Below, one piece after another: positions 26,845 through 60,746 of a stretch of DNA of 64,000 bases. The position numbers and the translations under genes were made by a program. Position 1 is the first letter of the stretch. Each line of letters starts with the position of its first letter. Under the pieces are notes generated by a model. It searched no databases. It was not told where the DNA came from and was given only the letters and a program-made list of their open reading frames with translations. Origin of the DNA: Paroedura picta (lineage: Eukaryota > Chordata > Lepidosauria > Squamata > Gekkonidae); the NCBI RefSeq assembly GCF_049243985.1, contig NC_135384.1, positions 12,830,501 to 12,894,500 of the forward strand, in the 5' to 3' direction.

Positions 26845-26950
26845 TCTGCTGAGAGAAGGAAAGTTATTGATGAAATACCTACACATTTGGAAAAGAATTA
26901 TTGTATCAATATCATGTATTTTAGTAGTACATTGTAGTCCTATTTATCAT

Positions 26951-38905: not shown

Positions 38906-39124
38906 TGTTGTGGGTGAACTAACTTTTTCTGTATGCTGATGTCCTGGGTTCCTGAGATCCAATCTCCAGGGACACCAGACCAAAGTAATAACCCACATTA
39001 CATATATAGTTTGTACCATTAGAATAACATAACTCTAAAACAAAGAGGGATCTTTTTTATCTGGGCAGACTGCATTCATTTCAGCATCTACACAAATATG
39101 GTAGCATAGTTATCAAGCTCAGAG

Positions 39125-39396
39125 TATATAAGAGCTTTCTATACAAAAAGAATTGAGAATAAAGACGTGTCACAATTGTTTCCATTTTTTGTGGCTCGTG
39201 ATTTGGGCTATTGCTGCAAGATAAGCATATAGTACGGAATGAATACCTGCTTGTTTATTACCCTACACACACCTCTGGGGGGATTATCTATGATCAGATA
39301 TTGAAATAAGTAAATATATTAATACAGTCCAAGGATATTAACATTTCAAGTGACTTCTAGTGAGAACTAGTGAGAGCTGATTCTAAGTGTGCAGAG
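39125..39396 (+). promoter_or_regulatory. Putative TATA box and non-coding 5' exon of the 41987 OR
   Basis: GAGTATATAAGAG at 39122 is a good TATA box. About 270 bases downstream lies a splice donor, GCAGAG|GTAAG at 39396/39397. The partner acceptor CTGTTTCCTTCCAG ends at 41954, 32 bases before the ATG. The layout is conserved at 34138-34395 and in arm B (61264 to 60990, minus). Confidence 0.65.
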
Positions 39397-40569
39397 GTAA
39401 GAACCTGTCTTTTATTTCAGCAACAATAATGCATAGACTTTCTTTTTTTTTATTACTATGCTTTAATGCCATGGGTTGGTTTTTGTATGACTAAAGATTG
39501 GACTATAGCTGAGAAAGTATACTAACCGCTCAATACACAAGCATTTTAAGCTGGTCGATCTGATTCTATCAACTATTTCAGTGGAGAAAAAGGAAGGAAG
39601 AACCCAATTTGTCTACCCAGAGATTATGAAAGGGTGTGTAGAATTCATATTGACAATATCTGTGTGATGCTGCAGGTCTACTGAGGGTGGGGGTTAAGCT
39701 AGATCAGTGAACGATTAATTTAAAAAAATATCCTACAACAAACACAATGTCAGTGAAAACAGTGGAAGAGACAAAAAAAGAACCTGTATTTCCCAAAATA
39801 CACACACAAAACCAATCTTCAACAAGATTATCAGAAAGTTTTAGACTTTATAAAAATCATAATTTTTCAGGAGTGGGGCAAGTAAGCTTACATATGTATT
39901 TACTAAACGGATTTTTGTGTTAAATCAATGCTTTGTCTCTATTAGTTCTCTTACAAGACTCTGCTTAGGATATTGATACCTTGCTTTGAATCCTAACTTC
40001 ACCGTGGAAGTTTGCTAGTTGACCTTGGATCAGTCCCATGTCTTAATCTAACCAATTTCAAAGAACTGTTCTGAGAATAAAGGGAATAGGAAGAGAATAT
40101 TGTAAGCCACCTAGGGTCCCCATTGAGAAGAAAAGTGGGATGTAAGAGAATTAAGTAAATGAATAAATGCATAAGAAGAAAAACATTTCCTGAACTTTCT
40201 GAAATTATTTACACTGATGATGATGATGGTCTTTAATAATTCCCTTTTTGATGTAAGATTTTTTTGATATAAGGTGTATATATTTGTTATCATATTTAGG
40301 CAGTGGGTTGAAGACTTTGTTAGTATCCCTGAAAAAAAAACAATTAAGAAATAAGACTATTTTAGTTACATAAAATTTATATGTATGTTTATGTTATGTA
40401 AATTCTGTATGAAGACATGATATACTTTGATTTTGTTACACTTCACTGACGAAGTAAAATATGAAAATGAGGTTTTATACCTAGGAACTCGTTCTATCGT
40501 TTGAAAAATAATAGCTTGGAAAATTCTTTCTTGTCTACTCATCTTCAGCTGATGGGTCATCTCTGAGTC

Positions 40570-41225
40570 TGTGAGCTTAGGCAGATTGTAAGTAGGTGGC
40601 CAGAATGAACTGTCTCAGTGATTAGCTCTTGTGGCCCTTTCTTGCATGTCCAGGGAAATGCCGATCACCACTTTGAGGCCAGAAGGCAAATTTCCTCCAC
40701 ACCAGACTAACAAGGGTTTGTGTTTGTGTGTGTGTGTGTGCAGGCATCATTTGGACATGGAATTGGGGTCACTGTGGGTGGGCAGGTTATTGTGAATTTA
40801 TACACATACACACAAACATACACATGGCCCATCCCTCGTGGAATGAGGTCGTAGACAAGCTGAGGACCCTGTCAAGGCTATCACAGATCCACATGGGCTG
40901 CAAAATGGAGGCCTTCCACCAGGCTAGGGTCAGGGCTAGGGTAGAAGATCTTGGCTCCCTCCTCCATGCCCCCTCCTTATTGGAAATCATTCCATTCCTA
41001 GTTACTATATCCTCTTTTTATTTATCGCAGTTTAGGGTTTGGAACCAACCATGGAAAAAACTTTTCTTAGTAGTATCTGCTGCTGTTTGGTTTATTCTGT
41101 TGTTGGGTGGTTTAAATTGGGTTCTTACTGTTTTAAAGCATTGTACTGTTTTCTATCCTAATGTAAGGTGCCACGAGCTGACCGGCCTGAGAGCGGTGAC
41201 TAACAAGTCACAATATAAATAAATA
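40570..41225 (+). mobile_element. CR1-type end followed by L2-type LINE 3' end (arm A)
   Basis: 40570-40800 shows CR1-like GGCTCTTG-type blocks (TTAGCTCTTGTGGCCCTTTC, GGGTCACTGTGGGTGGGCAG). 40830-41225 ends with CCGGCCTGAGAGCGGTGACT and an ATAAATAAATAAAAT tail. Mirrored in arm B, where a MITE splits the CR1 part. Confidence 0.65.
40747..40754. other. Empty target site of the arm B hAT MITE
   Basis: A single TCATTTGG here corresponds to the duplicated CCAAATGA flanking the MITE at 58632-58960. Arm A is therefore the pre-insertion state. Confidence 0.9.
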
Positions 41226-41274
41226 AAATAAATAGTAAGTTTAGAGTCCAGTACTAACTTAAATACCATTGATT

Positions 41275-41455
41275 CAGGTGGGGGCCATGTTGGTCTGAAG
41301 CAGTAGAACAAAGTTTGAGTTCTGTGGCACATTTAAGACTCTGTTTTATTCACGCTACAAGCTTTCATCTGAAGAAGTGTGCCTGCACACAAAAGGTTTA
41401 GAGGAATAAAACCTTGTTAGACTTAAAGGAGCCACTGGACTCAAACTTTCTTCCT
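41275..41455. repeat. Foldback interspersed repeat (arm A)
   Basis: The halves pair: AACAAAGTTTGAGTTCTGTG against CCACTGGACTCAAACTTTC. Same family as 27590 and 57905. Confidence 0.7.
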
Positions 41456-41639
41456 ACCTTAGAAACCAATAACAGTTGCAGGGTATAAGCTTGCAAGAGT
41501 CAAAGATCCCAGGGACCTTTCACTCCAGAAGCTTATACTGTGTAATTCTTGCTGGTCTCTGAGTGTACTGGACATGGAACAAACTTGTTTGACTGCTGGG
41601 CAAAACTGCTACCTTCTGGAACTGTCTACACAGGGACTG

Positions 41640-41735
41640 AGTGGCGGCGTCAGCATTGGCGACCACTGGAAAAAGGGTCAAGCAACGCCCAAAGGGAGCG
41701 CTACCCCCAGGTTGAGAACCACTGATCTAGATGAA
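41640..41735. mobile_element. hAT-type MITE remnant (arm A, one end deleted)
   Basis: Keeps the end GGTTGAGAACCACTG next to ATCTAGAT. The copy in arm B (57473-57643) keeps both ends. Confidence 0.65.
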
Positions 41736-41986
41736 TGTGGGGTTCAAACCAAATGTTCAACTCTACATTCAATGAAGTTAATACGAGAATTACTCAACAT
41801 ACATATCAAAAAAAATCAAGGGTGTGGCGAGCACAAATTATATGTGTGCAATTTATGTACAGGGCTAAAACCTCAGATCTATTCTACTCACAGGTCAATT
41901 TAATGTTTCTTCTTAAGACATAATTTTAATATCTATCCCTCTGTTTCCTTCCAGAAGTGACATTCATTTGTGAATGAGCTACCAAA

Positions 41987-42934
41987 ATGACCAATGAAAC
42001 ATCCATTTCGACGTTCCTGCTCCTTGAATTCTCGGGGATACGGGAACAGCAGATCCTACACTTCTTTCTATTCCTGGCATTGTACCTGGCAACCGTCATG
42101 GGGAATCTTCTCATCATCTCTGCAGTGGCTTTTGATCGCCACTTGCACACACCAATGTACTTCTTTCTCGTAAACTTGGCCATACAGGACCTTGGCTCCG
42201 TTTCAGCCATCATTCCAAAATCCATGGTAAATTCACTCATGAATACTAGATATATTTCCTATTCTGGTTGTGTATTTCAAGTTTTCTTTTTTGTGTTCTT
42301 TGTAGGATCTGATTTTTTTCTCCTCACTGTCATGGCATATGACCGGTATGTTGCCATTTGCAATCCCTTAAAGTATGAAATGCTGATGAGCAGGCAAGCC
42401 TGTATCCAAATGATTGCCACTGTATGGGTCATTGGGCTTCTTTATGGAGCATTGCACACTAGCGGCACCTTTACAGCTACCTTCTGCTCCAATGTTATCA
42501 ATCAGTTCTACTGTGAAATCCCACAGTTGCTTAAGAACTCCTGCTCCAACTCATATCTAACTGAAGTTGGTGCTCTTACGGTTAGTGTCATAATGGAGTT
42601 TGGGTGCTTTGTCTTCATCATTGTCACATATGTGGTGATCTTTTCTACAGTATTGAGAATGCCCTCTGTCAGAGGAAGGCAAAAAGCCTTTTCCACTTGC
42701 TTACCACATCTCATTGTTTTCTCTACATTTATAGTCACAGGGTGGTTTGCTTATCTGAAGCCTCCCTCCAAAACACCATCTGATCTGGATTTGGCATTAA
42801 CTGTGATCTATACATTTGTCCCACCCATGATGAATCCCATTATTTATAGCATGAGGAACAAGGATCTCAAGGTTGCCCTGTCAAAACTATTTATTCAGCT
42901 TTTATCTTCTGAGATAACCCTATCTAGTGTTTGA
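41987..42934 (+). CDS. Olfactory receptor, OR14-like (arm A, inner); intact
   Basis: Intact 315-residue single-exon OR: MTNETSISTFLLLEF with NET glycosylation site, TM1 GN (residues 39-40), LHTPMYFFLVNLAIQD, MAYDRYVAICNPLKY, EC2 with CSNVINQFYCEIPQ, KAFSTCLPHLIVF, and a TM7 reading FVPPMMNPIIYSMRNKD. The arm B partner (56261-57208) differs at about 16 residues. TM7 here (TVIYTFVPPMM) departs from the AVLYSLVPPLM form shared by the other three arm ORs. TATA box, 5' exon and acceptor are present upstream. Confidence 0.96.
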   Translation: MTNETSISTFLLLEFSGIREQQILHFFLFLALYLATVMGNLLIISAVAFDRHLHTPMYFFLVNLAIQDLGSVSAIIPKSMVNSLMNTRYISYSGCVFQVFFFVFFVGSDFFLLTVMAYDRYVAICNPLKYEMLMSRQACIQMIATVWVIGLLYGALHTSGTFTATFCSNVINQFYCEIPQLLKNSCSNSYLTEVGALTVSVIMEFGCFVFIIVTYVVIFSTVLRMPSVRGRQKAFSTCLPHLIVFSTFIVTGWFAYLKPPSKTPSDLDLALTVIYTFVPPMMNPIIYSMRNKDLKVALSKLFIQLLSSEITLSSV

Positions 42935-43179
42935 ATCTAGACATGTGTGAGGAGAAGATCTGGACCATTTTCAATTTGGTTCAAATCGATTCTGACCAAA
43001 TTGATGCATCTGAATGACCCACAGTGTACTTTTGATTCAGCTGAATTATTAATTTTTAATGCTGGATTTCTCCAAGCCTTTATTAAATGTATAGAAAGAT
43101 GTAACAAAGAAAAAGAAAAAAATACACAAATGAAAGATACTGATTACCCTATTATTAATATAGAAATAACTATCTAGAT

Positions 43180-43870
43180 AAATACTATGAAAAGTACCCC
43201 CAATGTTCTTCATGTTCTTCTGCTAGTCTGCCATTTACTAAGTTTATAACTTTAGCCATTTTTGCCAGTTCTCCCAATTTTTTGATCCAGTCCATTATTT
43301 TTGGATTATCTTCTTGCCTCCATCTTCTTGCGACCACCATCCTCGCCGCTGTGGTCACCCGCTTTACGTGGGAAGATGTTTAGAATTACACTCAGCAACA
43401 TATATTCAAGACATAACAGGAATTTGATATTTAACATTTTTACTCATACATCATGAACATTCAGCCAAAACCGTTACATTTTTTTACATTGTCACCACAT
43501 ATGAAAAAAAGAACCTACTTTATCTTTACATTTCCAACATTTAGGATCATAGCTTTTAGAAATGTGTTGCATATCACCTGTCAAACATTTTAAACCAATT
43601 TTCCTTTAATTGCTGACATTTTGAAAACTTGACCACATTATTTCACATCAGTCCCCACTCATCAACTGAAATGTTTTACCCAAGATTCAACTTCCATTTC
43701 ACCATACAATGTTTGACCTGTTCTGATTCAGTATCATATTTCAACAATAACTTATAAATCTGGCCTTGTAAATATGGCTTCCTTGAGGTCAAAATTTTCT
43801 CAGATTCCAACAAAATCAGACCAGCATCAGTCTGAATCTGCATCTGAATTATTTTGGATACGCCCAAATT
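43180..43870 (-). mobile_element. L1-type LINE ORF2 C-terminal fragment (arm A)
   Basis: Minus frames carry GQIYKLLLKYDTESEQVKHC (about 43690-43770) and W-IKKLGELAKMAKVINL (about 43230-43290), typical of the end of lizard L1 ORF2. Between them the C-W-C-like region is degraded (43430-43620). Mirrored at 55340-56040. Dead. Confidence 0.78.
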
Positions 43871-44245
43871 GATTTGGCACCGCTGAAACCAATGGGACCA
43901 TTCAAGTCTATGGGGATCTTCCTCTTATCTTTTCTGGGCTCAATGAGGGTAGAGTCACTAAACTTTCAGCATATCTTTGGGAGCTTTTCCTCAAAAGAAC
44001 ATTCAAGTTGCAAAAAGATTGTCTGGTCAGTTTTCACTATAGGATATAATAGAAGTTGGACCTCTTGGTACAATCTTTTTGAAACTTGGAGGTAATTTTG
44101 AGGCAAGGTTCCTGAAGCTATGCTGTACGTTTGGTGCTTCTACCTCAAACGTCCACTGCCCAGAGTGTAACAGTCACGTCATTCAGACTTAAACACAAAT
44201 AAGCATGTGAACTGATTGGACCTGGCAGAAAGTACCTGAATGTGA
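43871..44245. other. Intergenic between L1 fragment and V2R, no gene
   Basis: Matches the complement of 54960-55340 in arm B. No coding sequence or named repeat recognised. Confidence 0.5.
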
Positions 44246-44356
44246 TGTACCTACAATGCCTACAATAAAGATGACAGTAGCCAAGAATCCCATGTAGCCC
44301 AGAACACAGTAAAACATTGCAACAGACCCTTCATTACATTCCAGTATAATTTCTGA
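44246..44356 (-). pseudogene. Extra copy of an internal piece of V2R exon 6
   Basis: About 105 bases (GTAGCCAAGAATCCCATGTA and flanks) repeat 44683-44788 of the V2R 7TM exon almost exactly. The piece lies about 70 bases beyond the gene's stop codon. Arm B has no such copy at the matching point (near 54770), so it arose in arm A after the inverted duplication or was lost from B. Confidence 0.85.
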
Positions 44357-44421
44357 ATATTCTATTCCCTTTCATTATTCCCTTTCACATATGATTGTGG
44401 AAACTCTAAACACATCAATTC

Positions 44422-45323
44422 TTACATGTTTCTCATGAGTACCTGATCCTTGCTATTTAACTCAGGTCTCAAAACAATTATATAGAGTTTTGGGAAAAAT
44501 ATACAACCAAGTAATCCAGCACTGGAAGCTAAAATGGAGAAGATCTCCACAGCTACCATATGCTTTCCTTTTGTACTCAGGTAGGTTGGGACAAAGGAAA
44601 ACCAAACACTGAAAAACACCAGCATGCTAAAAGTGATGAACTTGGCCTCATTAAATGTGTTGGGCAACTTACGAGCAAGGAAAGCTACAATAAAGGTGAC
44701 AGTAGCCAAGAATCCCATGTAGCCCAGAACACAGTAAAACATTGCAACAGACCCTTCATTACATTCCAGTATAATTTCTTCAGTCCTTGACTTTTTATCC
44801 AGCCCTGGGTATGGAGGAGCGATGGAGAGCCACAGAATACATATAACTACTTGAACACTGGAACAAGACACCACAACTGAACATGCCAATGGTTTCCCCA
44901 ACCATTTCCTTATCTGGCTACCTGGTTTGGTGGCCATGAAAGCTAGAACCACAGTGATAGTTTTTGCCAACACAGAAGAAACAGCCACTGAGAAGATGAT
45001 GCCAAAAGATATTTGACGTAGAAGGCAAGTAATTGTCTGTGGCTGGCCAATAAAGAGCAAGGAACAGAGGAAGCATATCATGAGGGATATAAGCAGGCAG
45101 TAGGTTAGATCCTGATTGTTGGCTTTGACAATGGGAGTGATCCGGTGTTTAAAGAAGATTCCAAGCACCAGAGCTGTGATCAGAAAAAGAGAGAGAGCCA
45201 GAAGCACCAAAGTGACCCCCAAAGGATCACGATAGGACAGGAAGTGAAGAACCTTAGGAATGCATTGATCTTGGTCCTTGTTTGGATATTTATCTTCTGA
45301 GCATTCAACACAATCATCCATAT
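44422..45323 (-). CDS. V2R exon 6: end of Cys-rich linker, 7TM domain
   Basis: Acceptor TTTTTATCAG, then [18 protein letters not shown]. The TM region starts near [37 protein letters not shown] marks the TM6 entry, and the stop follows LMRNM. No defect. Confidence 0.95.
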
Positions 45324-46739
45324 CTGATAAAAAGAAAAGATTTGACTACACCAGCTCATAAACACTGTAATACGTTATTATTCATGTCTCATACTGAATC
45401 CTGTGCTATAAAAATACCTGTCCTCAAATACTTTTAAAATATATACTTATGATAGTAGAGAAATCAAATTTGCTGAGAATCTTTACTCATTTTTGTTGGA
45501 AGCCCCTGGAAGACGTCAGTATCCCCCATGGAGTTCTGAAGATGCCCAAATGTACTTTTTATCCAGCTATTCAGTTTAATAGTTCTATTAATGGAACTGC
45601 CACATTACTCATAGATTACATTTACTTGGATGGGAATGGTGCTGCAATTTAAATCTGAAGAAATTATGTTATACACTTGTGTAGGAGATTTACACTCCAA
45701 CAGATTTAACTAATGATAGTAGAATACATGCATTGTGATAGAACATTTCAGAATGATGGGGAGATGATTGGATCTGCACCACAGTACACTTCACACCATA
45801 TTTCAAGATCCTGTAGTAACCCTTATCCTGTAGGCTTTAGTATGTACACTGAGTAAGCATTGGCTGTTGGAATTAAATCATTCTATATAGGTCTTTTTTT
45901 TAATGGCGATACTTTATTCGTACCAAGTCCTTGCACCTTCATGTCGGGTTCTCCCAAGTCCAGAGAGTAAATTTAGTGGAAACTGGGACATTCTTCTTTA
46001 TGAGTCCTACCCTTTTTGCTTACAAAAGAGGTGTCGATTTGGTCCCAGCATTTCAAGATTTGTCATTTGCCTCCAAAACTCTATTTCTTAATTAATAATA
46101 TATAACATTTTCAGCTATTGAAAAAAGTGGGTTCAAGCTAATCCCAAAAACACTTTATGTAATTTTTGTTGGACTATGCAAAATCTGTAGTGGGCATGAC
46201 TCAATAACATATATGAAGAATATCCTATAATGGGCACTGATGGAGATATTTAGATCAGGAACTTCCTAGTATTTTCCAAATAATCTCCTACGGGGTCCTG
46301 ATTGGCTCAAATGGAGACTTTGAACATACTTCTCCCTGTTTGCCTTCAGATGATCAAGAACACTTTCTTTCCTGTCTTTTTACACAGTTGTTTCTCTTCT
46401 GAATAAAACTATTTATTCTTCAAGCAGCTGATGATTTGCCCTTTGGATATTTAAACTGTGCCTATATAACTTGCTTAAATATGTATCCCCCACTTTCTAT
46501 CTGTATATGTAGATCTTACCTTTCTTCTCAGAAATTTTTCCTTCTGGGCATGGAGCACAGTCATAGCAACAAAATGGCTCCTCATCCTTCTTTTTTCGGC
46601 TGTAACCAGGATGACAGTTGTCATTACACACAGAAATTGGCTGGACCTATTCACAAAAGGAGAAAGTATTGTATTTGCTGTATTTTTATGTATTAATATA
46701 TAATATAGATATCTTTGCTGGTCTATGTCCATAATAAAG

Positions 46740-46770
<31 letters not shown>

Positions 46771-49700
46771 TGTATGTATGTAGCCTCTTGTGGCGCAGGG
46801 TGGTAAGGCAGCGATATGCTGTCTGAAGCTGTCTGCCCATGAGGCTGGGAGTTCGATCCCAGCAGCCGGCTCAATGTCAACTCAGCCTTCCATCCTTCCA
46901 AGGTCAGTAAAATGAGTACCCAGCTTGCTGGGAGGTAAACGGTAATGGCTGGGGAAGGCACTAGCAAACCACTCCGTATTGAGTCTGCCATGAAAAGGCT
47001 GGAGGGCGTCACCCCAAGGGTCAGACATTACCCAGTGCTTGCACAGGGGATACCTTTACCTTTATGCAGGTATGAGATCTAAATGAAAAAGATGGGACCT
47101 AGAGATGTGATCAGAATCTCATGCATTGTGAATTAAGCGCAACACAATTCCAAAATAGATGTAAAGTTAATTGTAGTCTCTGTTCTACATACAACCAATA
47201 AAATGGTCATGGGTTGCTATAGCATTACTAAATCTGTAAGATAGCAATTAACCCCCAAGCCTGAGTTTAAGGGAACAAGTGGGTGTGAGTATGGATGCTT
47301 TTGTTTGTTTTCTGCAGATTGTTCCCACCTGATTCAATGCCCTGTGCCATGTGATGAATTCCTCATCAATTGTGAACTCCATGCCCCGAGGAGCCTGGGG
47401 ATCCATCCCTCCTACTTTTATTCTTTGGAAACTTTGATTTAGGAAAGTCACCCAGTTGATAATGTCAAATCCAGTATCTAGTTCACCTGCCTCATTAAAG
47501 TGAATGAGATCCCCAGCGCTGTTGTTAAATGAGATGCTCCTCAGAAAAGGATGAAGCTAAATGGAAAGAGGCAAACAAACATTTTAGATGATGAAAGCAG
47601 AGTTGGGAGATGTATGTTAAATCTTTCACAAAATTCAAACACTGGTCCTTTAGAGATAGGATGTCCCCCCACCCTTTGATGAACTGATACCAGGCTATGG
47701 GAAAGCACTAAGAATAGGGGACAGTGCAGATGGAAGCCTTGAATTTTGCCTTTATATCTGAAGTTTTATGCAAATGAGCTGCTATAATTGAAAGTTTCCA
47801 TTAAAAAGATTTGTAGAACTTTCAGAAACATTAATCACGGGAAGCACATTCATGTGTCTCCTGAGTAACAGCTATGAATCTAGATGTGAATATTATATTC
47901 ACTGGCTCAAACAAGTGGGACCCACACTTATTTAAAATTTTAATATGCTTCCTGAAACATGAAGATTGTACAATGATTGACAGAGAGATCTGAAACAATA
48001 TTAATAAGCCTGCCTCCCCCACACCAGGCGGTTGACCATGGGTGGTAGGAATATGGATTAATTCTTCTGTTTAGATATTTTTCCTGCCAGTCACAGATCA
48101 GTTGCACCTTATGTCCTTCCCACTGCCCAGGTGATTCCATAAATGAGAAACCACAATAATAATTTAATTTGAAATTTTCCAATTGCGAAACTTAAATCAT
48201 TTGCATGAATATTGTCAGATTTGTTTCTATATTAACCAGCTATGTATCATTGATAGGTGCAAAATATTACCTGCCAAGACTGTAGCCTGAAGGACTCCTT
48301 TATGTCTCCTTCCTTTAATGTTAAAGTGGATTTTGGTCTCATTGAGTACATGGCATGCAAAGCTTGTGCTCCTGCAAGGACAGCATTGTAGATACTGTAA
48401 CTATGAGGGGTCATCATCATCTCAAAGAAAGGACCTGGGAGGCTCTCAAGCTTCTCCTCTCCAGTGCATCTGCTTGTCTCACTGTCTTGTTTGGAAGGTG
48501 ATAATAAACAGTTAAATGCTGGCTCCCAAAAGAGCCTGATAAAGTCATCTTTTTCTGGCCAATGGGAACTTACAATATGAATGAAATTTTGGAACCCAAA
48601 TATTTCATAAGTCTTAACGTTAAAGGATAAAGCTCCATGGAAAACATTGATGTCCAAATACCTATCTAGAGTCTGAGAGGAGAAATCCCACTCTGCTGTC
48701 ATAATCCATACCTTACCCATGATCATTTCTGACATATCTTCCATTTGTGCTATATATAAAAACCATTTCAAAACTAACATTGTATAAGGTTCTGCCTTGA
48801 TTACAAATACATTGACTTCCATCTTTTTTTCGAAAAGTGCTAAATACTCTCTGGGTCTAGTTATGTAAAAAACATTTTTCATGTCTTCATTGGCAGTCAA
48901 AGTTGGCAGCCAATGAATGAAGGCAGGACAGATGTCATTTTGGGACAGCAGTAGCGTCAAGATCTTCACAAACTTTTCTCCTTCATCACCATCCATGGCA
49001 ACAATTCCAATCCATATCCACTGAAAATGCAGAAGTAGTTGGACAATCCCTCTGTACTGGTTGGTTTCATTTGGGACCATCTGGTAGATGGAAGGAGTCT
49101 TGTTTTTTTCATTTGTCACTGGAGCAAAGAACCAACAGGTAACCTAAGCAAAATTTTTGAAAATGTTACAACTGACTATGAGATCTTTAGGTCCATGTAA
49201 ATGTTCAAACACATTCATAATTAATCAATATATCTAATTTTTCAATGTGGTGCCATCTTGTGGATGCTTCAGTCCAGAGACTTAGACCACACAAATCATT
49301 TGACAAACCTTAGAAATGCCCTAGGTTTACAGGAAAAACTGAAATCTACATAAGAAGGGTAGCTTAATTGGATCGCCTTATCCCGAAAGGTGAAAGGAGC
49401 TTTAAGAAACAGGTTTCCTAAATGACTGTTGCTAAATATCCCCAGCAATAACAAGCCTGTCTTTCTTTCAAGAGGACCGGAAGGGGCCGTTTCTTTTTTT
49501 TTTAATGTGGCACGGACTTACCTGGATCCCAGCATTGATGTTGTCGAAGAGCAGGCGCGAGGGAGACACGCTCCCTTTGCTGCTCGAGCAGCTGGGCAGG
49601 CGGGCGTGATGATCAAGTGAAATTAAGTAAATAAATAAACATAGTTGATGATCAGGGGGTAGATGGAACTCATTGGCCAAAGAGACTCCTCCTATTATTA

Positions 49701-51612
49701 GAATGCTGGCAAAGAAGGCTCTTTTCCATATAATCACTATGGATTTCTGTGTGAGACAACGTTTTACACTTCATTATTTTTTTATTATTATTGTTGTTCA
49801 GGGTTGCTTTAGCAAATGAGTTAAAAACTAAAGACGCAATGAAGGATGCATTCTTTCATTGCTGTTTGGTACTCTTGAATCTCTTGAAACTAGGAATATA
49901 TACAGAGAAAAAGTTTTGTACACCTACCTAACCATATATCTATACTTTCCTCCAAAGTGTACAGGATGGGATAATCAGATCCTCTACACTCTGCTTTATA
50001 CACCCCAAGAATCTTGTGAGGTAGGTTATGCTGGAACTGTGCAGGTGGCTTAACTCAGTGGACTTCATGGACGAGCAGAGATGTGTGCTCCTAGTCCAAT
50101 CCTAACTAAACGATGCCTTACTGATGCTCTTAAAAGACTGGATTGTAGCAGAGATTTTGTCTATTTACAGGTTTGTGTTCATTAGTAAAGTAGTACTTAA
50201 TGGCATTGCTACATACCTTGAAAGAACTATGGAAGCTTCTGTATTGTTTCCTATGAAAACTACATCAATCTCATTGTGAAGTCATATATTTTCTTTTTAT
50301 TCATTTTTTATTTCAATTTATATCCCGCCACTTCCAACCAAGGCTTGTGGTGGATAACAATAGTTGGCCTCACAATAAAATCCCTCAAAACAGGAAAAAA
50401 AAACCCTTATAAAAGCTCTCTCTAGCAGTGAAAATTCCCACCTCCCCTGGCTCAACCAGCCTTTTGGTAAAATAGTGCTTCAGGGGACACAAGGAATGGT
50501 GAAGAACTGGCTAACCAGCAGGCCCAGATTTAATAGCACTGACCTCAACCAATAACCTGGTAGAAGAGCTCCATCTTGCAAGCCCCATGGAACTGAGAAA
50601 GTTCTGTCAGGGTGCTCAGCTATCCCGGGAGCTCATTCCACCAGGCGCATTCCTCATTCCACATTCCTCATGCTGAGGACCACCAACAGGTTCCTACCCA
50701 CAGAGCGCAATGCCCTGTGGGGGGCATAAGAAGTTAGGTGGTCCCACAGAATACAAAGAAAAGATAATGAACTATTTACACACAATTTAAACATCCCACC
50801 TGTGGTATTTTGTATATGCTCAGCATGTTGGCTATGTGCAAGGAGGTTTCATAATCAAGCCCTCCAATGACAGCCATTAAACGCCTCTGGTTGTTACAGC
50901 AGTAATTGGGGATGATCTTTTCTAAGGTACAGAGGAAATTCAAGATGTTCTGAAGAGTCAACTTGGCATGGAAGTAGCTGTCATAGATATGAAACCCAAG
51001 GCTGGTATTGGGTAAGATCTTGGGATTGTCATTGACCTCCTTCACAGCAAATGCCAAGGCCAGGACATGCTGGTAGTTCTTCAGCGTTGCACTAAAACAA
51101 GAATCATACCAATAAATCTTTTTAATGGCTTCTATTGAAAGGATGAGAGCATCAGATTCATGACAGGACCACCATATTCTTTAGACCAGTGATGCACACA
51201 TGTTCAGAACAAGTCAAAGAAGATGCAGAAAGCCGTTTTAGGTTTTGCAATACTTTTCACAGACAGCAAAGAGTATAATTCCATGCCTTTTTCATGGATC
51301 CTGCTTTGTGGTAATTTGAGGTTACGAGGCAATCTTCTACTTGCATTGGCTATAATCTGTCTGGCCGTGTACACGGGAAATAAAAATAGCTCCTTACATT
51401 GGTTCGCCAATCAGCTTTGTCTTGGGATGTTCTGCAAAGGATAAGGCTTCAAAATGAATGGAAAGCTGAGAAGTCATTCCACCAAAGATGAAGTCACCTG
51501 CTTGATAATACTCATGTGGATTAAAGAGTGGGTCACGGATGCCGCACATGTTTTCCTGTGGCTTGCCTTCAGCCGGAATCTGTAGCAACATCAGCACAAA
51601 TGAGATTACCAT
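44422..51612 (-). CDS. Vomeronasal type 2 receptor (V2R), six exons, intact
   Basis: A class C pheromone GPCR expected in basal vomeronasal neurons. Exons: 51398-51612, 50800-51091, 48271-49143, 47329-47556, 46520-46646 and 44422-45323. All introns are GT-AG and the phases join without a break, giving 879 codons including the stop (2637 bases). Domains in order: a short signal peptide ([16 protein letters not shown]), the Venus-flytrap ligand-binding domain (exons 1-4), a Cys-rich NCD3G linker (exon 5 and start of exon 6), and seven TM helices ending [13 protein letters not shown]. The length is normal for V2Rs. Exons 1-4 lie in the palindrome spacer and exons 5-6 in arm A. It resembles receptors usually labelled VMN2R26-like; no orthology is claimed. 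Confidence 0.95.
46520..46646 (-). CDS. V2R exon 5: NCD3G Cys-rich segment
   Basis: 127 bases; reads [20 protein letters not shown], then [18 protein letters not shown]. Acceptor ...GAATAG, donor GTAAGATC. Ends in phase 1, matching exon 6. Confidence 0.95.
46740..46781. repeat. (TATG)n microsatellite at the arm A edge
   Basis: About ten TATG units start exactly where homology to arm B stops. Confidence 0.95.
46782..47064 (+). mobile_element. Full-length Sauria-like tRNA-derived SINE in V2R intron 4
   Basis: tRNA-like head GCCTCTTGTGGCGCAGG (A box), B box GGGAGTTCGATCCCAGC, body with GGTAAAATGAGTACCCAG-type sequence, and tail CCTTTACCTTTA. Complete version of the 10424 element. Confidence 0.88.
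47329..47556 (-). CDS. V2R exon 4: end of ligand-binding domain
   Basis: 228 bases, 76 codons. Begins [16 protein letters not shown] after acceptor CCATTTAG and ends WHRALNQ at donor GTGGGA. Confidence 0.93.
48271..49143 (-). CDS. V2R exon 3: main ligand-binding exon
   Basis: 873 bases, 291 codons, no stop. Begins [20 protein letters not shown] after TTTGCTTAG and ends SFRLQSWQ at GTAATA. Carries [19 protein letters not shown], with an N-glycosylation site, and the [14 protein letters not shown] lobe. Confidence 0.94.
49144..50799 (-). other. V2R intron 2, with a GC-rich exon-like segment and LINE end
   Basis: About 1.66 kb. 49480-49615 is CpG-rich and exon-like on the minus strand. 50285-50740 is a CR1/L2-type 3' end. 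The rest is AT-rich with no recognised feature. Confidence 0.65.
50285..50740 (-). mobile_element. CR1/L2-type LINE 3' UTR in V2R intron 2
   Basis: Reverse strand of TTTATATCCCGCCACTTCCA (3' tail) through CCCGGGAGCTCATTCCACCA and GCTGAGGACCACCAACAGGT. Typical of the end region of these LINEs. Confidence 0.72.
50800..51091 (-). CDS. V2R exon 2: first ligand-binding lobe
   Basis: 292 bases. Acceptor CTTGTTTTAG; joins exon 1 to read [17 protein letters not shown]. Holds [18 protein letters not shown], a V2R signature. Ends IYKIPQ at donor GTGGGA. Confidence 0.95.
51398..51612 (-). CDS. V2R exon 1: signal peptide and N-terminus
   Basis: 215 bases from ATG at 51612 to donor GTAAGGA. In-frame sequence upstream of the ATG runs only a short way to a stop. 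The signal peptide is short. [20 protein letters not shown] is the usual V2R exon 1 core. Confidence 0.9.
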
Positions 51613-52411
51613 CTTGAAGGAAATGCCTATACTCGTTGATTGTTCTATCTAGCTCATCCTAAACTATTACGATGACCATAGTTAAGCACTACATCAGAAT
51701 ATACACCGTGATGTCAGTAAACTTTGTTTTTTGCAATAAACTGGCGTGAGATCTGCCTGTAAAACAGACAGTCAGCACACTCGTGTACACACACAGCACA
51801 TCAAGACACAACTGAAGTATTCTGATTTATTTTGTACAGTCTGAGGATTGTTTATTGATTGGACACTTTGAATGCACCCTGAAATTCCATATAGGCCTTA
51901 ACAAGAAGAACAGTACATCATGGGAACAATGTAATGACGGGGTTGATAATTAATTCCCTAGTCAACTGTGAATAATGCGGCTTTGAGGAAAGGCGAAAAC
52001 ATGTCTGAAAACAGCATGTCTGTCAATGTTTCTGGCAATAAAAATAAAAATAAAACCAAAACAAAGTAAAGTATAGTAACCAAATCATCAGCATCAAAAG
52101 AAGAACTTGAGAAATATGCTTCCAGACTGGACCACCAGTCTATCTACTCTATTATCAATGAATTACCAATTGCCTGTACATTGGATATGTATGGAATTAC
52201 CTTGTTCCTAAAGGATATAGGTGGCTTTTATTGGCAGGTTAGCAACAATGGGAAGGTACTTTTATGATTCAGCAGATTTTTTTGTTTGTTTCATTTATGT
52301 GGCTAGAATTGTCTGGATAATGCCATTCCAAGCTGGAATATAGCTAGGTTTTTTTTTTCTCTACACTGTACAAGTTTACATGGGGATGCATCCTGATGGG
52401 GGGAGTCCTTT
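51613..52411. other. V2R 5' flank, rest of palindrome spacer
   Basis: Presumably contains the V2R promoter (minus strand), but no TATA box was recognised. There is no gene, and no homology to the other arm until 52412. Confidence 0.5.
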
Positions 52412-52513
52412 ATTATGGTCATAGACCAGCAAAGATATCTATATTATATATTAATACATAAAAGAGACAGAGCAAAATACAGCAAATACAATACTTTCTC
52501 CTTATGTGAATAG

Positions 52514-54693
52514 GTCCAATCGATTTCTGTGTGTAATGACAACTGTCATCCTGGTTACAGCCGAAAAAAGAAGGATGAGGAGCCATTTTGTTGCTATGAC
52601 TGTGCTCCATGCCCAGAAGGAAAAATTTCTGAGAAGAAAGGTAAGATCTACATATACAGATAGAAAGTGGGGGATACATATTTAAGCAAGTTATATAGGC
52701 ACAGTTTAAAAATCCAAAGGGCAAATCATCAGCTGCTTGAAGAATAAATAGTTTTATTCAGAAGAGAAACAACTCAGTAAAAAGGCAGGAAAGAAAGTGT
52801 TCTTGATCATCTGAAGGCAAACAGGGAGAAGTATGTTCAATTCTCCATTTGAGCCAATCAGGACCCCGTAGGAGATTATTTGGAAAATACCAGGAAGTTC
52901 CTTATCTAAATATGCTAATTACACATCTCCATCAGTGCAATTATAGGATATTCTTCATATATGTTATTGTCATGCCCACTACAGATTTTGCATAGTCCAA
53001 CAAAAATTACATAAAGTGTTTTTGGGATTAGCTTGAACCCACTTTTTTCAATAGCTGAAAATGTTATATATAATTAATTAAGAAATAGAGTTTTGGAGGA
53101 AAATGACAAATCTTGAAATGCCGGGACAAATTCGACACCTCTTTTGTAAGCAAAAAGGGTAGGACTCATAAAGAAGAATGTCCCAGTTTCCACTAATTTT
53201 ACCCTCTGGATTTGGGAAAACCCGACATGAAGGTGCAGGGACTTGGTAGGAATAAAGTATCGCCATTAAAAAAAAGACCTATATAGAATAATTTATTTAC
53301 AACAGCCAATGCTTACTCAGTGTACATACTAAAGCAATAAGGGTTACTAAAGAATCTTGAGATATGGTGTAAAGTGTACTGTGGTGCAGATCCAATCTTC
53401 TCTCCATCATTCTGAAATGTGCTATCACAATGCATGTATTCTACTATCATTAGTTAAATCTGTTGGAGTGTAAATCTCCTACACAAGTGTATAACATAAT
53501 TTCTTCAAATTTAAATGGCAGCACCGTTCCCATCCAAGTAAATGTAATCTATGAGTAACATGGCAGTTCCATTAATAGAACTATTAAATTGAATGGCTGG
53601 ATAAAAAGTACATTTGGACATCTTCAGAACTCCATGGAGGATACTGAAGTTTTCCAGGGACTTCCAACAAAAATGAGTAAAGATTCTCAGCCAATTTGAT
53701 TTCTCTACTATCATAAGTATATATTTTAAAGTATTTTGAGGACAGGTATTTTTATAGCACAGGATTCAGTATGAGACATGAATGATAACATATTGCAGTG
53801 TTTATGAGCTGGTGTAGTCAAATCTTTTTTTTTTATCAGATATGGATGATTGTGTTGAATGCTCAGAAGATAAATATCCAAACAAGGACCAAGATCAATG
53901 CATTCCTAAGGTTCTACACTTTCTGTCCTATAATGAAACTATGGGGATCTCTTTGATTCTTCTGGCTCTCTCTTTTTTTCTGATCACAGCTCCGGTGCTC
54001 GGAATCTTCCTTAAACACCGGATCATTCCCATTGTCAAAGCCAACAATCAGGATCTAACCTACTGCCTGCTTACCTCCCTCATGATATGCTTCCTCTGTT
54101 CTTTGCTCTTCATTGGCCAGCCACAGACACTGACTTGCCTTCTACGTCAAATATCTTTTGGCATCATCTTCTCAGTAGCTGTTTCTTCTGTGTTGGCAAA
54201 AACTATCACTGTGGTTCTAGCTTTCATGGCCACCAAACCAGGTAGCCAGATAAGGAAATGGGTGGGGAAACCACTGGCATGTTCAATTGTGCTGTCTTGT
54301 TCCACTGTTCAATAGTTATATGTATTCTGTGGCTCTTCATCACTCCACCATACCCAGGGCTAGATAAAAAGTCAAGGACTGAAGAAATTTAACTGGAATG
54401 TAATGAAGGGTCTGTTGCAATATTTTGCTGTGTTCTTGAGTACATGGGATTCTTGGCTACTGTCACCTTTATTGTAGCTTTCTTTGCTCGCATGTTGCCC
54501 AATACATTTAATGAGGCCAAGTTCATCACTTTTAGCATGCTGGTGTGGTTTTCCTTTGTACCCACCTACCTGAGTACAAAAGGGAAACATATGGTAGCTG
54601 TGGAGATCTTCTCCACTTTAGCTTCCAGTGCTGGATTACTTGGTTGTATATTCTTCCCAAAACTCTATATTTTGAGACCTAAATAGCAAGGAT
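52514..54693 (+). pseudogene. V2R exons 5-6, arm B copy; broken, no exons 1-4
   Basis: Exon 5 (52514-52640) keeps its acceptor GAATAG, its donor GTAAGATC and an open frame ([11 protein letters not shown]). Exon 6 (53840-54693) keeps acceptor TTTTATCAG and [17 protein letters not shown]. In exon 6 one base is lost after SCSTVQ (54313, giving TAG), a further stop follows at about 54389 (ATT TAA), 12 bases are missing in TM6 (VFFS lost before WFSF), and the C-tail is shortened (LRPK stop). The ligand-binding exons are absent because the duplication edge falls in intron 4. Confidence 0.93.
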
Positions 54694-55339
54694 CAGGTAC
54701 TCATGAGAAACATATAGGAATTGATGCATTTAGAGTTTCCACAATCGTATATACCTGTAATAATAAAAAGGAATAATATATTCAGATATTCTCATGATTT
54801 TATTCCAGCTCAGGTGCTTTCTGTCCAGAGCCCAGGAAAGACAAAAAGGGGATCTTTTCCCCCTTTCTCTTTCCCATTAAATCTTTAAAGGTCACTTGCT
54901 CTAATCATTGAACTCTGATTTGAGCAAGGTTGATTGTGCCATTTAAACTTGTTGGAAAATTGTGATTTTGATCACATTCATGTACTTTCTGCCAGGTCCA
55001 ATCAGTTCACTCATGCTTATTTGTGTTTATGTCTGAATGACGTGACTGTTACACTCTGGGCAGTGGCTGATTGAGGTAGAAACACCAAACATGCAGCATA
55101 GCTTCAGGAACCTTGCCTCAAAATTACCTCTAAGTTTCAAAAAGATTGTACTAAGACGTCCAACCTCTATTATGTCCTACAGTGAAAACTGACCAGACAA
55201 TCTTTTTGCAACTTGGGTGTTCTTTTCAGGAAAAGCTCCCAAAGATATGCTGAAAGTTTAGTGACTCTACCCTCATAGTGCCCAGAAAAGATAAGAGGAA
55301 GATCCACATAGACTTGAATGGTCCCATTGGTTTCAGTGG
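54694..55339. other. Flank between V2R copy and L1 fragment, no gene
   Basis: Mirror of 43870-44420 without the 105-base V2R piece. No coding sequence. Confidence 0.5.
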
Positions 55340-56040
55340 TGCCAAATCAATTTGGGTGTATCCAAAATAATTCAGATGCAGAATCATACTGATGCTGGTC
55401 CGATTTTGTTGGAATTTGAGAAAATTTTGACCTCAAGGAAGCCACATTTACAAGGCCAGATTTATAAGTTATTGTTGAAATATGATACTGAATCAGAACA
55501 GGTCAAACATTGTATGGTGAAATGGATGTTGAATCTTGGGTAAAACATTTCAGTTGAAGAGTGGGGAAATAATATGGTCAAGTTTACAAAATGTCAGCAA
55601 TTAAAGGAAAATTGGTTTAAAATGTTTGAGAGATGGTATGCAACACATTTCTAAAAGCTATGATCCTAAATGTTGGAAATGTAAAGATAAAGTAGGTTCT
55701 TTTTTCATATGTGGTGACAATGTAAACAAAATGTAATGGTTTTAGCTGAATGTTCATGATGTATGAGTAAAAATATTAAATATCAAATTCTTGTTATGTC
55801 TTGAATATATGTTGCTGAGTATAATTCTAAACATCTTCCCACGTATAGTGGGTGACCACAGCGGCGAGGATGGTGGTCGCAAGAAGATGGAGGCAAGAAG
55901 CTATTCCAAAAATAATGGACTGGATCAAAAAATTGGGAGAACTGGCAAAAATGGCTAAAGTTATAAACTTAGTAAATGGCAGACTAGCAGAAGAACATGA
56001 AGAACATGGGGGGTACTTTTCACAGTATTTACCTAGATAG
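55340..56040 (+). mobile_element. L1-type LINE ORF2 C-terminal fragment (arm B)
   Basis: Mirror of 43180-43870. Reads GQIYKLLLKYDTESEQVKHC, then FFHMWWQCKQN (near 55705), then MTTAARMVVARRWRQEAIPK and WIKKLGELAKMAKVINLVNG. This is the usual end of lizard L1 ORF2. Broken by stops in between. Confidence 0.8.
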
Positions 56041-56260
56041 TTATTTCTATATTAATAAGATAATAGGGTAATCAGTATCTTTCATTTGTGTATTTTTTCT
56101 TTTTCTTTGTTATATCTTTCTATACATTTCCAGCATTAAAAATTAATAATTCAGCTGAATCAAAAGTACACTGTGGGTCATTCAGATGCATCAATTTGGT
56201 CAGAATCGATTTGAACCAAATTGAAAATGGTCCGGATCGTCTCCTCACACATGTCTAGAT

Positions 56261-57208
56261 TCAAATACTAGATAGGGTTGTCTCAGAAGACAAAAGCTGA
56301 ATAAATAGTTTTGACAGGGCAACCTTGAGATCCTTGTTCCTCATGCTATAAATAATGGGATTCATCAAGGGTGGGACAAGACTATACAACACAGCTAATG
56401 CCAAATCCAGATCAGATGGTGTTTTGGAGGGAGGCTTCAGATAAGCAAACCACCCTGTGACTATGAATGTAGAGAAAACAATGAGATGTGGTAAGCAAGT
56501 GGAAAAGGCTTTTTGCCTTCCTCTGACAGAGGGCATTCTCAATACTGTAGAAAAGATCACCACATATGTGACAATGATGAAGACAAAGCACCCAAACTCT
56601 ATTATGACACTGACCGTAACAGCACCAACTTCAGTAAGATAAGAGTTGGAGCAGGAGTTCTTAAGCAACTGTGGGATTTCACAGTAGAACTGATTGATAA
56701 CATTGGAGCAGAAGGTAGTTGTAAAGGTGCCGCTAGTATGCAATGCTCCATAAAGAAGCCCAATGACCCATACAGTGGCCATCATTTGGATACAGGCTTG
56801 CCTGTTCATCAACATTTCATACTTTAAGGGATTGCAAATGGCAACATACCGATCATATGCCATGACAGTGAGGAGAAAAAAATCAGATCCTACAAAGAAC
56901 ACAAAAAAGAAAACTTGAAATACGCAACCAGAATAGGAAATGTCTCTAGTATTCATGAGTGAATTCACCATGGATTTTGGAATGATGGTTGAAACTGAGC
57001 CAAGGTCCTGTATGGCCAAGTTTATGAGAAAGAAGTACATTGGTGTGTGCAAGTGGCGATCAAAAGCCACTGCAGAGATGATGAGAAGATTCTCCATGAC
57101 GGTTGCCAGGTACAATGCCAGGAATAGAAAGAAGTGTAGGATCTGCTGTTCCCGTATCCCCGAGAATTCAAGGAGCAGGAACGTCGAAATGGATGTTTCA
57201 TTAGTCAT
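56261..57208 (-). CDS. Olfactory receptor, OR14-like (arm B, inner); open but TM1 glycine changed
   Basis: Full-length 315-residue open frame, partner of the 41987 OR. It keeps LHTPMYFFLINLAIQD, MAYDRYVAICNPLKY, EC2 with CSNVINQFYCEIPQ, KAFSTCLPHLIVF, and LVPPLMNPIIYSMRNKD. The TM1 GN motif reads EN: Gly39 is Glu (codon at 57092-57094). That is rare in ORs and could impair folding. TM7 matches the outer OR form rather than its own arm A partner. Acceptor at 57241, mirrored TATA box and 5' exon at 61264-60990. Whether it is functional is open. Confidence 0.93.
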   Translation of the reverse strand: MTNETSISTFLLLEFSGIREQQILHFFLFLALYLATVMENLLIISAVAFDRHLHTPMYFFLINLAIQDLGSVSTIIPKSMVNSLMNTRDISYSGCVFQVFFFVFFVGSDFFLLTVMAYDRYVAICNPLKYEMLMNRQACIQMMATVWVIGLLYGALHTSGTFTTTFCSNVINQFYCEIPQLLKNSCSNSYLTEVGAVTVSVIIEFGCFVFIIVTYVVIFSTVLRMPSVRGRQKAFSTCLPHLIVFSTFIVTGWFAYLKPPSKTPSDLDLALAVLYSLVPPLMNPIIYSMRNKDLKVALSKLFIQLLSSETTLSSI

Positions 57209-57472
57209 TTTGGTAGCTCATTCACAAATGAATGTCACCTCTGGAAGGAAACAGAGGGATAGATATTAAAATTATGTCTTAAGAAGAAACATTAAATTGA
57301 CCTGCAAGTAGAATAGATTTGAGGTTTTAGCCCTGTACATAAATTGCACACATATAATTTGTGCTTGCCACACCCTTGATTTTTCTTGATATGTATGTTG
57401 AGTAATTCTCATATTAACTTCATTGAATGTAGAGTTGAACATGTGGTTTGAACCCCACATTTATCTAGATCA

Positions 57473-57643
57473 GTGGCTCTCAACCTGTGGGTTGCAATCC
57501 CTTTGGGTGTTGCTTGACCCTTTTTCCAGTGGTCACCAATGCTGCCGCTACCACTTTGCTGTCACCACTCTGCTGCCAGCGACGGTGGCCTCAGTGACCC
57601 AAAGGGGGTCGCGGCATTAGGTAGGTTGATAACCACTGATATA
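57473..57643. mobile_element. hAT-type MITE (arm B, both ends kept)
   Basis: Ends CAGTGGCTCTCAACCT and the complement of CAGTGGTTATCAACCT. Flanks ATCTAGAT and ATATAGAT are a probable 8-base target duplication. Also present, truncated, in arm A, so it predates the arm duplication. Confidence 0.8.
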
Positions 57644-57904
57644 GATCTTTTCCCTTGCTTTAATTTTTAAAGTGAGCACACCTCAGCACTTCCCCACTGA
57701 CAGTCACATGCGAGACTCACGCCCTGTATAGACAGTTCCAGAAGGTAGCAGTTTTGCCCAGCAGTCAAACAAGTTTGTTTCTTGTCCAGTACACTCAGAG
57801 ACCAGCAAGAATTACACAGTATAAGCTCCTGGAATGAAAGATCCGTGGGATCTTTGACTCTTGCAAGCTTATACCCTGCAACTGTTAATGGTTTCTAAGG
57901 AAGG

Positions 57905-58080
57905 AAAAAAGTTTGAGTCCAGTGGCTCCTTTAAGTCCAACAAGGTTTTATTCCTCTAAAACTTTTGTGTGCAGGCACACTTCTTCAGATGAAAGCTTGT
58001 AGCATGAATAGTCTTAAATGTGCCACAGAGCTCAAACTTTGTTCTACTGCTTCAGACCAACATGGCCCCCACCTGAATCA
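57905..58080. repeat. Foldback interspersed repeat (arm B)
   Basis: Mirror of 41275-41455; AGTTTGAGTCCAGTGGCTCC pairs with the far half. Confidence 0.7.
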
Positions 58081-58114
58081 ATGGTCTTTAAGGTATTATT
58101 GGACTCTAAACTTA

Positions 58115-58510
58115 CTATTTATTTATTTTATTTATTTATATTGTGACTTGTTAGTCACCGCTCTCAGGCCGGTCAGCTCGTGGCAGCTTACAGTAGGATA
58201 GAAAACAGTACAATGCTTTAAATTAGTAGAACCCAATTTAAACCACCCAACAGCAGAATAAACAAAACAGCAGCAGCAGATACTACTAAGAAAAGTTTTT
58301 TCCATGGTTGGTACCAAACCCTAAGCTGCGATAAATAAAAAGAGGATATAGTAACTAGGAATGGACTGATTTCCAATAAGGAGGGGGCATGGAGGAGGGA
58401 GCCAAGATCTTCTACCCTAGCCCTGACCCTAGCCCTGAGCCAAGATCTTCTACCCTAGCCCTGACCCATTTTGCAGCCCATGTGGATCTGTGATAGCCTT
58501 GACAGGTTCC
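58115..58510 (-). mobile_element. L2-type LINE 3' end (arm B)
   Basis: Mirror of 40830-41225. It contains a local tandem duplication of about 37 bases at 58400-58466 (GCCAAGATCTTCTACCCTAG twice) that arm A lacks. Confidence 0.65.
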
Positions 58511-58631
58511 TCAGCTTGTCTACGACCTCATTCCACAAGAGATGGGCCATGTGTTTGTTTGTGTGTGTGTGTGTGTATAAATTCACAATAACCTGCCCAC
58601 CCACAGTGACCCCAATCCCATGTCCAAATGA

Positions 58632-58960
58632 CCCATTATGCACAGGGGTTTTAGCGCACATTCGGGGTGGAATGGCGGCGACTAAAATCACCGATAATGC
58701 ACGGTGCCGGCTGCAAACGGCCGCAGCTTCCGTGCATGCCGCTGAAAAAGCCGCATTTGCGAAACGTGGAAGAAAGCGCAGCTTCCGGGTGACCGGGGCG
58801 CAACCAGAAGCGGCGCCCGGATCGCCGCATGCATAATGTTACTCTGGGTTTTGCCGCCATCGCGCCCCGCCCCGTGCATAACCGGTGTGCGTCGCGTCTT
58901 CCCCCTCTGCGTTTTCCATGTGACCCGAAATCGCCGTTTCGGCGGCCGTGCATAATGGGC
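58632..58960. mobile_element. hAT-type MITE, arm B only, GC-rich
   Basis: Ends CCCATTATGCAC and GTGCATAATGGG. Perfect 8-base target duplication CCAAATGA (58624-58631 and 58961-58968). 329 bases, very CpG-rich, no transposase; the open frames in it are by-products. The empty site is at 40747-40754. It splits a CR1-type sequence. Confidence 0.95.
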
Positions 58961-59297
58961 CCAAATGATGCCTCCACACACACACACAAAAACACAAACC
59001 CTTGTTAGTCTGGTGTGGAGGGAATTTGCCTTCTGGCCTCAAAGTGGTGATCGGCATTTCCCTGGACATGCAAGAAAGGGCCACAAGAGCTAAGCACTGA
59101 GACAGTTCATTCTGGTCACCTACTTACAAACATATATATATAAATTTTATGTACCTAAAATAGTTTTCTACCTTATTTTTTAATTGTTTTTTTTTCAGGG
59201 ATACTAACAAAGTCTTCAACCCACTGCCTAAATATGAAAGCAAATATATACACCTTATATCAAAAAAATCTTACATCAAAAAGGGAATTATTAAAGA

Positions 59298-60025
59298 ACA
59301 TATGTGACATATACATACCTTATATTTTATACCTTATATTTTATATTTTAAGCCATATAACTTGGGTCTATTAATATCAAAGGTCCATGAAGGTAACTAT
59401 CTTATAAATGACCCCAAAGTGGAATATACTCCTTTAAAAGACTTGGAGAGGAATCTGTATCAGAACAAGAGCAGTTCATTAAACAATGTGCCTATGAGTC
59501 ATAGCGAAATAGTATGTGTTCCCGGTGTAACTAATTAAACAATGTACCTAATGAGCGTGATCTGCAACGAGTTGATCTATGTTTTATAAATATAGTGGAT
59601 ACCTGGAGGTCCATGAAGGTAACTATCTTATACATGACCCAAAAGCCTCTAGGTACCCACTGTATTCATAAAACAATCTTTTAGAGGCTCCAGGTTTGAG
59701 ACTAAATACGAGTCCTTGGATCACTAGGTAACACCTGGCATGCAGCAAAATATGACACAATAGGTTTAGCAAAAGAGAAAAAAAAATAAATACACTACAG
59801 AAGTGATGGAATGCTGAGAGCAAGTGAGTCTCTGCTAAAGGGGTAGGGGGAGTATTCATATTTTCAAGCTCCTAAGACTTAGAGCATCCTGGAGTGGGGA
59901 GATCTGGGGAAATTTCCAAAGTCTATAACCTCCCCCCCACACACATTTTAACATATCTAATTTATATCCCAGAGATGTCTCCCTCCCAAACTTACTCCAA
60001 TCGTATTCTTACCTGGAAAAATTTG
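59298..60025. repeat. Arm B-only block of about 728 bases with internal direct repeats
   Basis: Lies between TTATTAAAGA and TCATCATCATC, which adjoin in arm A (near 40233). AGGTCCATGAAGGTAACTAT occurs at 59381 and 59607, and TTAAACAATGT at about 59478 and 59535. No family or coding function recognised. It could be an insertion in B or a deletion in A. Confidence 0.75.
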
Positions 60026-60624
60026 TCATCATCATCATCATCAGTGTAAATAATTTCAGAAAGTTCAGGAAATGTTTTTCTACTTATGCATTTATTCATT
60101 TACTTAATTCTCTTACATCCCACTTTTCTTCTCAATGGGGACCCTAGGTGGCTTACAATATTCTCTTCCTATTCCCTTTATTCTCAGAACAGTTCTTTGA
60201 AATTGGTTATATTAAGACATGGGACTGATCCAAGGTCAACTAGCAAACTTCCACGGTGAACTTAGGATTCAAAGCAAGGTATCAATATCCTCAGCAGAGT
60301 CTTGTAAGAGAACTAATAGAGACAAAGCATTGATTTAACACAAAAATCCGTTTAGTAAATACATATGTAAGCTTACTTGCCCCACTCCTGAAAAATTATG
60401 ATTTTTATAAAGTCTAAAACTTTCTGATAATCTTGATGAAGATTGGTCTTGTGTGTGTATTTTGGGAAATACGGGTTCTTATTTTGTCTCTTCCACTGTT
60501 TTCACTGACATTGTGTTTGTTGTAGGATATTTTTTAAAATTAATCATTCACTGATCTAGCTTAACCCCCACCCTCAGTAGACCTGCAGCATCACACAGAT
60601 ATTGTCAATATGAATTCTACACCC

Positions 60625-60746
60625 ACCCCACAGGGTGTCTGTTATGGGGAGAGGAATGGGAAGGCGACTGTAAGCCGCTTTGAGCCTCCTTCGGGTAGGG
60701 AAAAGCGGCATATAAGAACCAACTCTTCTTCTTCTTCTTCTTCTTC
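60625..60746 (+). mobile_element. tRNA-derived SINE, 3' half, arm B only
   Basis: Runs from CCCACAGGGTGTCTGTTATG to GGCATATAAGAACCAACTC with a (TTC)n tail. TTCTACAC flanks both sides as a likely target duplication. Arm A has an uninterrupted site near 39645. Confidence 0.88.

Follow-up and report, generated by a model that had tools for sequence, protein, structure and literature searches.

Does the inverted repeat around a V2R gene of Paroedura picta allow the gene to exchange its 7TM exon? The question arises in a 64,000-nucleotide stretch of DNA (hereafter the window), in which the first four exons of the gene lie between two long inverted arms and each arm contains a copy of the last two. 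The initial annotation proposed that recombination between the arms would flip the segment between them, join exons 1-4 to the other set of exons 5-6 and so act as a two-position switch or an inactivating polymorphism. We compared the window with itself, modelled the gene, assessed the coding state of both exon sets and inverted the window in silico.

An intact V2R gene between inverted arms

Self-comparison of the window delimited an inverted repeat composed of arm A (36001-46739) and arm B (52408-64000) with a 5.7-kb spacer between them. The inverted alignment, made of BLAST pieces of 91.9-98.3% identity, runs from 36001/64000 to 46739/52408, seed extension gave 20 arm pairs, and overall the arms are 95-97% identical. 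Their length rules out a chance origin. The initial annotation had confined the structure to 44422-54693; the arms it described are real but reach far beyond that interval and past the window end, where the arm-to-arm match still continues, so that the full arms are longer than the window shows. With long, highly identical inverted arms flanking unique DNA, the structure is an inverted-repeat segmental duplication, and its setting is a chemoreceptor (OR/V2R) cluster. The inner edge of homology (46739/52408) comes close to exon 5, ending some 93 bp upstream of it. The arms, the spacer and the exons of the gene are as follows.

36001-46739, minus strand: arm A, about 92-98% identical to arm B piecewise and inverted; pairing within the window stops at 36001
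46740-52407, no strand assigned: spacer, single copy, carrying V2R exons 1-4; no homology to the other arm within these limits
52408-64000, plus strand: arm B, reaching the window end
46741-47064, minus strand: SINE-like element with a (TATG)10.5 tail, adjoining the inner edge of arm A; 89% match to 10459-10691
51398-51612, minus strand: V2R exon 1, signal peptide and N-terminus; donor GTAAGG, phase compatible with exon 2
50800-51091, minus strand: V2R exon 2 (splice-site and phase gene model)
48271-49143, minus strand: V2R exon 3, most of the ligand-binding domain (gene model; ANF_receptor)
47329-47556, minus strand: V2R exon 4 (splice-site and phase gene model)
46520-46646, minus strand: V2R exon 5 in arm A, cysteine-rich NCD3G (gene model; Pfam)
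44422-45323, minus strand: V2R exon 6 in arm A, intact 7TM exon including the stop codon (7tm_3 positions 1-251 of 251)

The exons were modelled from splice sites and phase. Every intron is bounded by AG/GT and the phases fit; the resulting coding sequence of 2637 nt is open and encodes 878 aa. This confirms the earlier placement of the minus-strand gene, with its first four exons in the spacer and its last two in arm A. Pfam matches to ANF_receptor (138.6 bits), NCD3G (63.5 bits) and 7tm_3 (278.9 bits) each cover the profile almost end to end. The protein thus unites the three domains expected of a V2R, and the gene has six coding exons with the whole 7TM domain in the last. Its closest solved structures are CaSR, mGluR and T1R (taste receptor) chains. 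As the initial annotation held, the present arrangement uses the working 7TM exon, with 7tm_3 complete and the coding sequence open. On paper, the gene model shows a V2R that is complete and readable and that should work as it is now arranged.

Several other genes and repeats were observed in the window. Mirror-image OR genes at 41978-42934 and 56261-57217 are each open over 318 codons, with a dN/dS of 0.44 between the arms. Farther out, the arm B OR gene at 62793-63278 lacks 388 bp of its intact arm A partner (36655-37599), and much of its 5' part is gone. Outside the arms, 16394-26929 holds a tandem array of three OR genes with a unit length of about 4.7 kb; two are open and the one at 16.5-17.5 kb is frame-shifted. 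A decayed V2R exon 1, followed by the first part of its intron, is found at 31274-31464 (plus strand), 79% identical to 51336-51520 and in the opposite orientation. No further V2R exons lie near it, which points to an older V2R relic, and elsewhere in the window it is the only remnant of exons 1-4. LINE reverse transcriptase frames (RVT_1, resembling BovB/RTE) are present in more than one frame at 253-1676, and a direct repeat of about 2.8 kb with 88-93% identity at 1683-4509 and 11405-14006. By its SINE and LINE types and its OR/V2R content, the window would be placed in a squamate reptile.

State and history of the arm B exons

The second set of exons 5 and 6 proposed for arm B, in the opposite orientation and with intact splice sites at exon 5 and an intact exon 6 acceptor, was found as described.

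52514-52640, plus strand: arm B copy of exon 5; reading frame open and both splice sites preserved
53840-54718 (end approximate), plus strand: arm B copy of exon 6, a pseudogene interrupted by two stops (the first caused by a 1-bp deletion) and lacking a further 12, 6 and 5 bp

Arm B exon 5 retains its acceptor AG and donor GT and shares 41 of 42 residues with exon 5 of arm A, with three differences in all between the two copies, and the acceptor AG before 53840 is likewise intact. Exon 6 of arm B is in a different state. A 1-bp deletion leads directly to a TAG after 158 codons, a further in-frame TAA lies beyond it, and the frame reaches only positions 1-129 of the 251 of 7tm_3. Together with the 12-, 6- and 5-bp deletions this makes four arm-to-arm indels in 0.9 kb, all fitting lesions on the arm B side, against about 1.9 expected for one neutral copy from the noncoding arm-to-arm rate of about 4.3 indels per kb. 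Because this load is at or above the neutral expectation, arm B exon 6 gives no sign of being kept. Judged by its reading frame, it is dead and would be unable to encode a 7TM domain. Alternative splicing of the arm B exons to the V2R as now arranged is excluded by their position upstream on the opposite strand.

The pairwise dN/dS of exon 6 between the arms is 0.49 (bootstrap 0.27-0.90), a value that does not prove past use of the arm B copy because constraint on arm A alone could yield it; arm B exon 6 may have been under constraint during part of its history. Synonymous sites of exon 6 differ by about 8.8%, versus about 4.2% for sites outside the gene (p = 0.004), and 16 of the arm-to-arm substitutions are crowded into a 120-bp segment, 45256-45137 (permutation p = 0.0095). 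Both features may stem from a brief conversion event in which another V2R donated sequence to one of the exon 6 copies. Shortly after the stop codon, arm A alone carries 95 bp that repeat a segment of exon 6 in direct orientation (44260-44354, 98.9% identical to 44685-44779) and look like a templated insertion; at the matching site arm B has about 190 unrelated bases (54787-54980).

Crossover position and the outcome of inversion

To follow the gene through an inversion, the window was inverted in silico at 21 crossover positions, and the outcome depended on where in the arms the crossover was placed. Any crossover between the arm inner edge and exon 6 joined exons 1-4 to the whole of arm B exon 6 and gave a truncated product of 736 aa. 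Within exon 6 the products ranged from 736 to 864 aa, and at 44425, just before the stop, the product was 878 aa long with only its last residue altered. From 44000 outward, all nine crossovers tested restored a normal 878-aa V2R that was merely reoriented; these outer crossovers are harmless to the gene because exons 5-6 turn together with the spacer. The earlier claim of a 7TM exon swap through recombination between the arms therefore holds for crossovers between the inner edge and exon 6 and fails as a general statement. In the window, 14% of the alignable arm falls in the swap zone (the inner 1.4 kb), 9% lies within exon 6 and 77% belongs to the no-swap zone.

Of the arm stretches with perfect identity, exon 5 and intron 5 make up 14% when a length of 50 bp is required and 26% when 100 bp is required; above 150 bp a single tract is left.

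46450-46637 (arm B 52523-52710), minus strand: 188-bp tract, the longest of perfect identity between the arms, spanning the greater part of exon 5 and the beginning of intron 5

Over the whole arm a tract of this length is unexceptional (permutation p = 0.25). It is nonetheless the likeliest single place for an exon-swapping crossover. An exon swap by inversion is thus possible and its best site is well placed; spacer inversion itself is a prediction from the geometry of the arms.

How often the arms exchange sequence can be judged from their divergence. Noncoding divergence is 4.5% in the inner and 2.7% in the outer arm (p = 1e-4), which sets the arms apart from gene-converting palindromes, whose arms are more than 99% identical. 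Not one perfect tract of 200 bp or more joins the arms in the window, and the longest stretch at 99% identity is about 460 bp. Frequent exchange is unlikely given this divergence and the lack of a 200-bp perfect tract. The less diverged outer arm (36001-40228 versus 60030-64000) possibly reflects later conversion or a second duplication step. If low divergence marks exchange, past exchange would be placed in the outer arm, where it entails no exon swap. The human Y palindrome P6 resembles the present locus in having large inverted arms that flank a spacer, but its arms are kept more than 99.9% identical by gene conversion, and conversions outnumber inversions there by 56 to 3 (PMC3723533), whereas the V2R arms are about 95-97% identical. 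Measured against P6, exchange between the V2R arms would be rare and conversion slow or absent, and because conversions outnumber inversions in P6 and the present arms are divergent, few inversions are implied.

Origin of the locus and comparison with known inversions

We consider it very probable that the locus arose by inverted segmental duplication, with an orphan 3'-exon pseudogene left behind, and that it constitutes a latent inactivating inversion hazard and not a switch. An inverted duplication inside the OR/V2R cluster would have left arm A with the last two exons of the intact V2R and arm B with an orphan, oppositely oriented copy of the same two exons. These orphan exons would be a pseudogene by-product of the duplication, or of a later loss of exons 1-4 from a second gene, and would probably have no use of their own. 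The V2R would be exposed to rare inversions, as would any gene near an inverted partial copy; its product would be shortened or changed only if the crossover fell within the 2.3 kb of the arm nearest the spacer, and such inner-arm inversions would be ordinary loss-of-function mutations. Three observations go against this reading: the dN/dS of 0.49, which allows for past constraint on arm B exon 6; the position of the longest perfect tract of the window, exactly where a crossover would swap the exons; and the human inversion HsInv0209, discussed below, which is polymorphic despite divergent arms.

A different origin is possible, if less likely, in which a longer palindrome held two complete head-to-head V2Rs, an asymmetric central deletion took exons 1-4 of the arm B gene, and its exons 5-6 then decayed. 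Central deletions are a known fate of palindromes, and a dN/dS below 1 would be in keeping with earlier function of arm B exon 6. However, a second set of exons 1-4 has left no remnant in the spacer or in arm B, and the inner flanks carry no leftover homology: when intron 4 upstream of the SINE-like element was compared with the inner flank of arm B, as a test of whether the duplication once extended further in, homology did not rise above that of shuffles. From the window itself, central deletion and partial inverted duplication would be expected to produce the same present anatomy, and relatives would be needed to separate them. Inverted repeats are error-prone in assemblies, and a fold-back or mis-joined haplotypes could imitate such arms; the 2.7-4.5% divergence, the 30-odd indels and the large arm-specific insertions and deletions exceed what a duplicated read or two alleles would give, which makes an artefact very unlikely. 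As for a maintained two-position switch, in which each arm would provide usable 3' exons at different times, the presence in each arm of an exon 5-6 pair whose acceptors are intact, and the pairwise dN/dS below 1, would suit it. Yet arm B exon 6 stops halfway through 7tm_3 and carries four indels besides, no recombinase gene or site was recognised, and we know of nothing comparable to a two-position exon switch in vertebrate receptors. Since inversion within the inner arm yields 736 aa, one orientation is left without a usable product; the proposal of a switch is not borne out, with one state working and the other dead, and we regard it as extremely improbable.

The weaker form of the initial proposal is an inversion polymorphism. 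Both orientations would segregate, and some of the inverted chromosomes would join exons 1-4 to the dead arm B exon 6, so that intact and null V2R alleles coexist. Geometry and splice sites permit this, the best crossover tract (188 bp, perfect) lies over exon 5, recurrent inversion between inverted repeats is documented in human populations (PMC3961182), and the human CTRB1-CTRB2 inversion swaps exon 1 (PMC11937528). The single assembly, however, contains one arrangement, crossovers over 77% of the arm in the window would produce no swap, and the arms are divergent and have no perfect tract of 200 bp; we therefore hold the polymorphism to be unlikely. The stronger version, in which the spacer inverts recurrently through the exon 5 tract, intact and truncated V2R form a structural on/off polymorphism and arm B exon 6 was once a usable 7TM alternative, appears quite unlikely. 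Literature searches found no report of a V2R inversion of this sort in squamates, an absence that is weak evidence.

The human IDS gene and its partial copy IDS-2 (IDSP1) at Xq28 offer a close likeness to the duplication proposed here, with an intact multi-exon gene and a partial, inverted exon copy nearby. Recombination between IDS and IDS-2 inverts the intervening DNA and disrupts the gene, and about 13% of Hunter mutations are rearrangements involving the pseudogene (PMC6982257). The V2R locus matches this architecture, and simulation predicts disruption for inner crossovers. In contrast to IDS, where the inversion is observed in patients, the V2R locus is known from one arrangement, its copy consists of exons 5-6, and the majority of crossovers would do the gene no harm. 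Human examples of polymorphic inversions that exchange exons have already been described. The one at CTRB1-CTRB2 likewise involves inverted paralogous gene parts and exon exchange (PMC11937528), but there both genes are functional and the polymorphism is demonstrated, while the V2R copy is broken and lacks exons 1-4. HsInv0241 (AQP12A/AQP12B) is a polymorphic inversion, mediated by inverted repeats, that swaps a first exon (PMC3961182). HsInv0209, at the KRTAP5 genes, is polymorphic with 7-kb arms of 94% average identity and a 782-bp tract of 99.9% (PMC3961182). It is a counter-example to the rare exchange argued for the V2R locus, as its arms are divergent too; the best that the V2R arms offer is 188 bp of perfect identity and 460 bp at 99%.

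In all, this locus is a clear natural case of an inverted duplication that leaves the broken 3' half of a chemoreceptor gene, reversed, beside the intact gene. The place of a crossover within the arms settles whether an inversion is neutral or inactivates the gene. The locus also offers a defined region in which to seek the loss of a receptor through inversion, an event that surveys based on short reads or exons would overlook.
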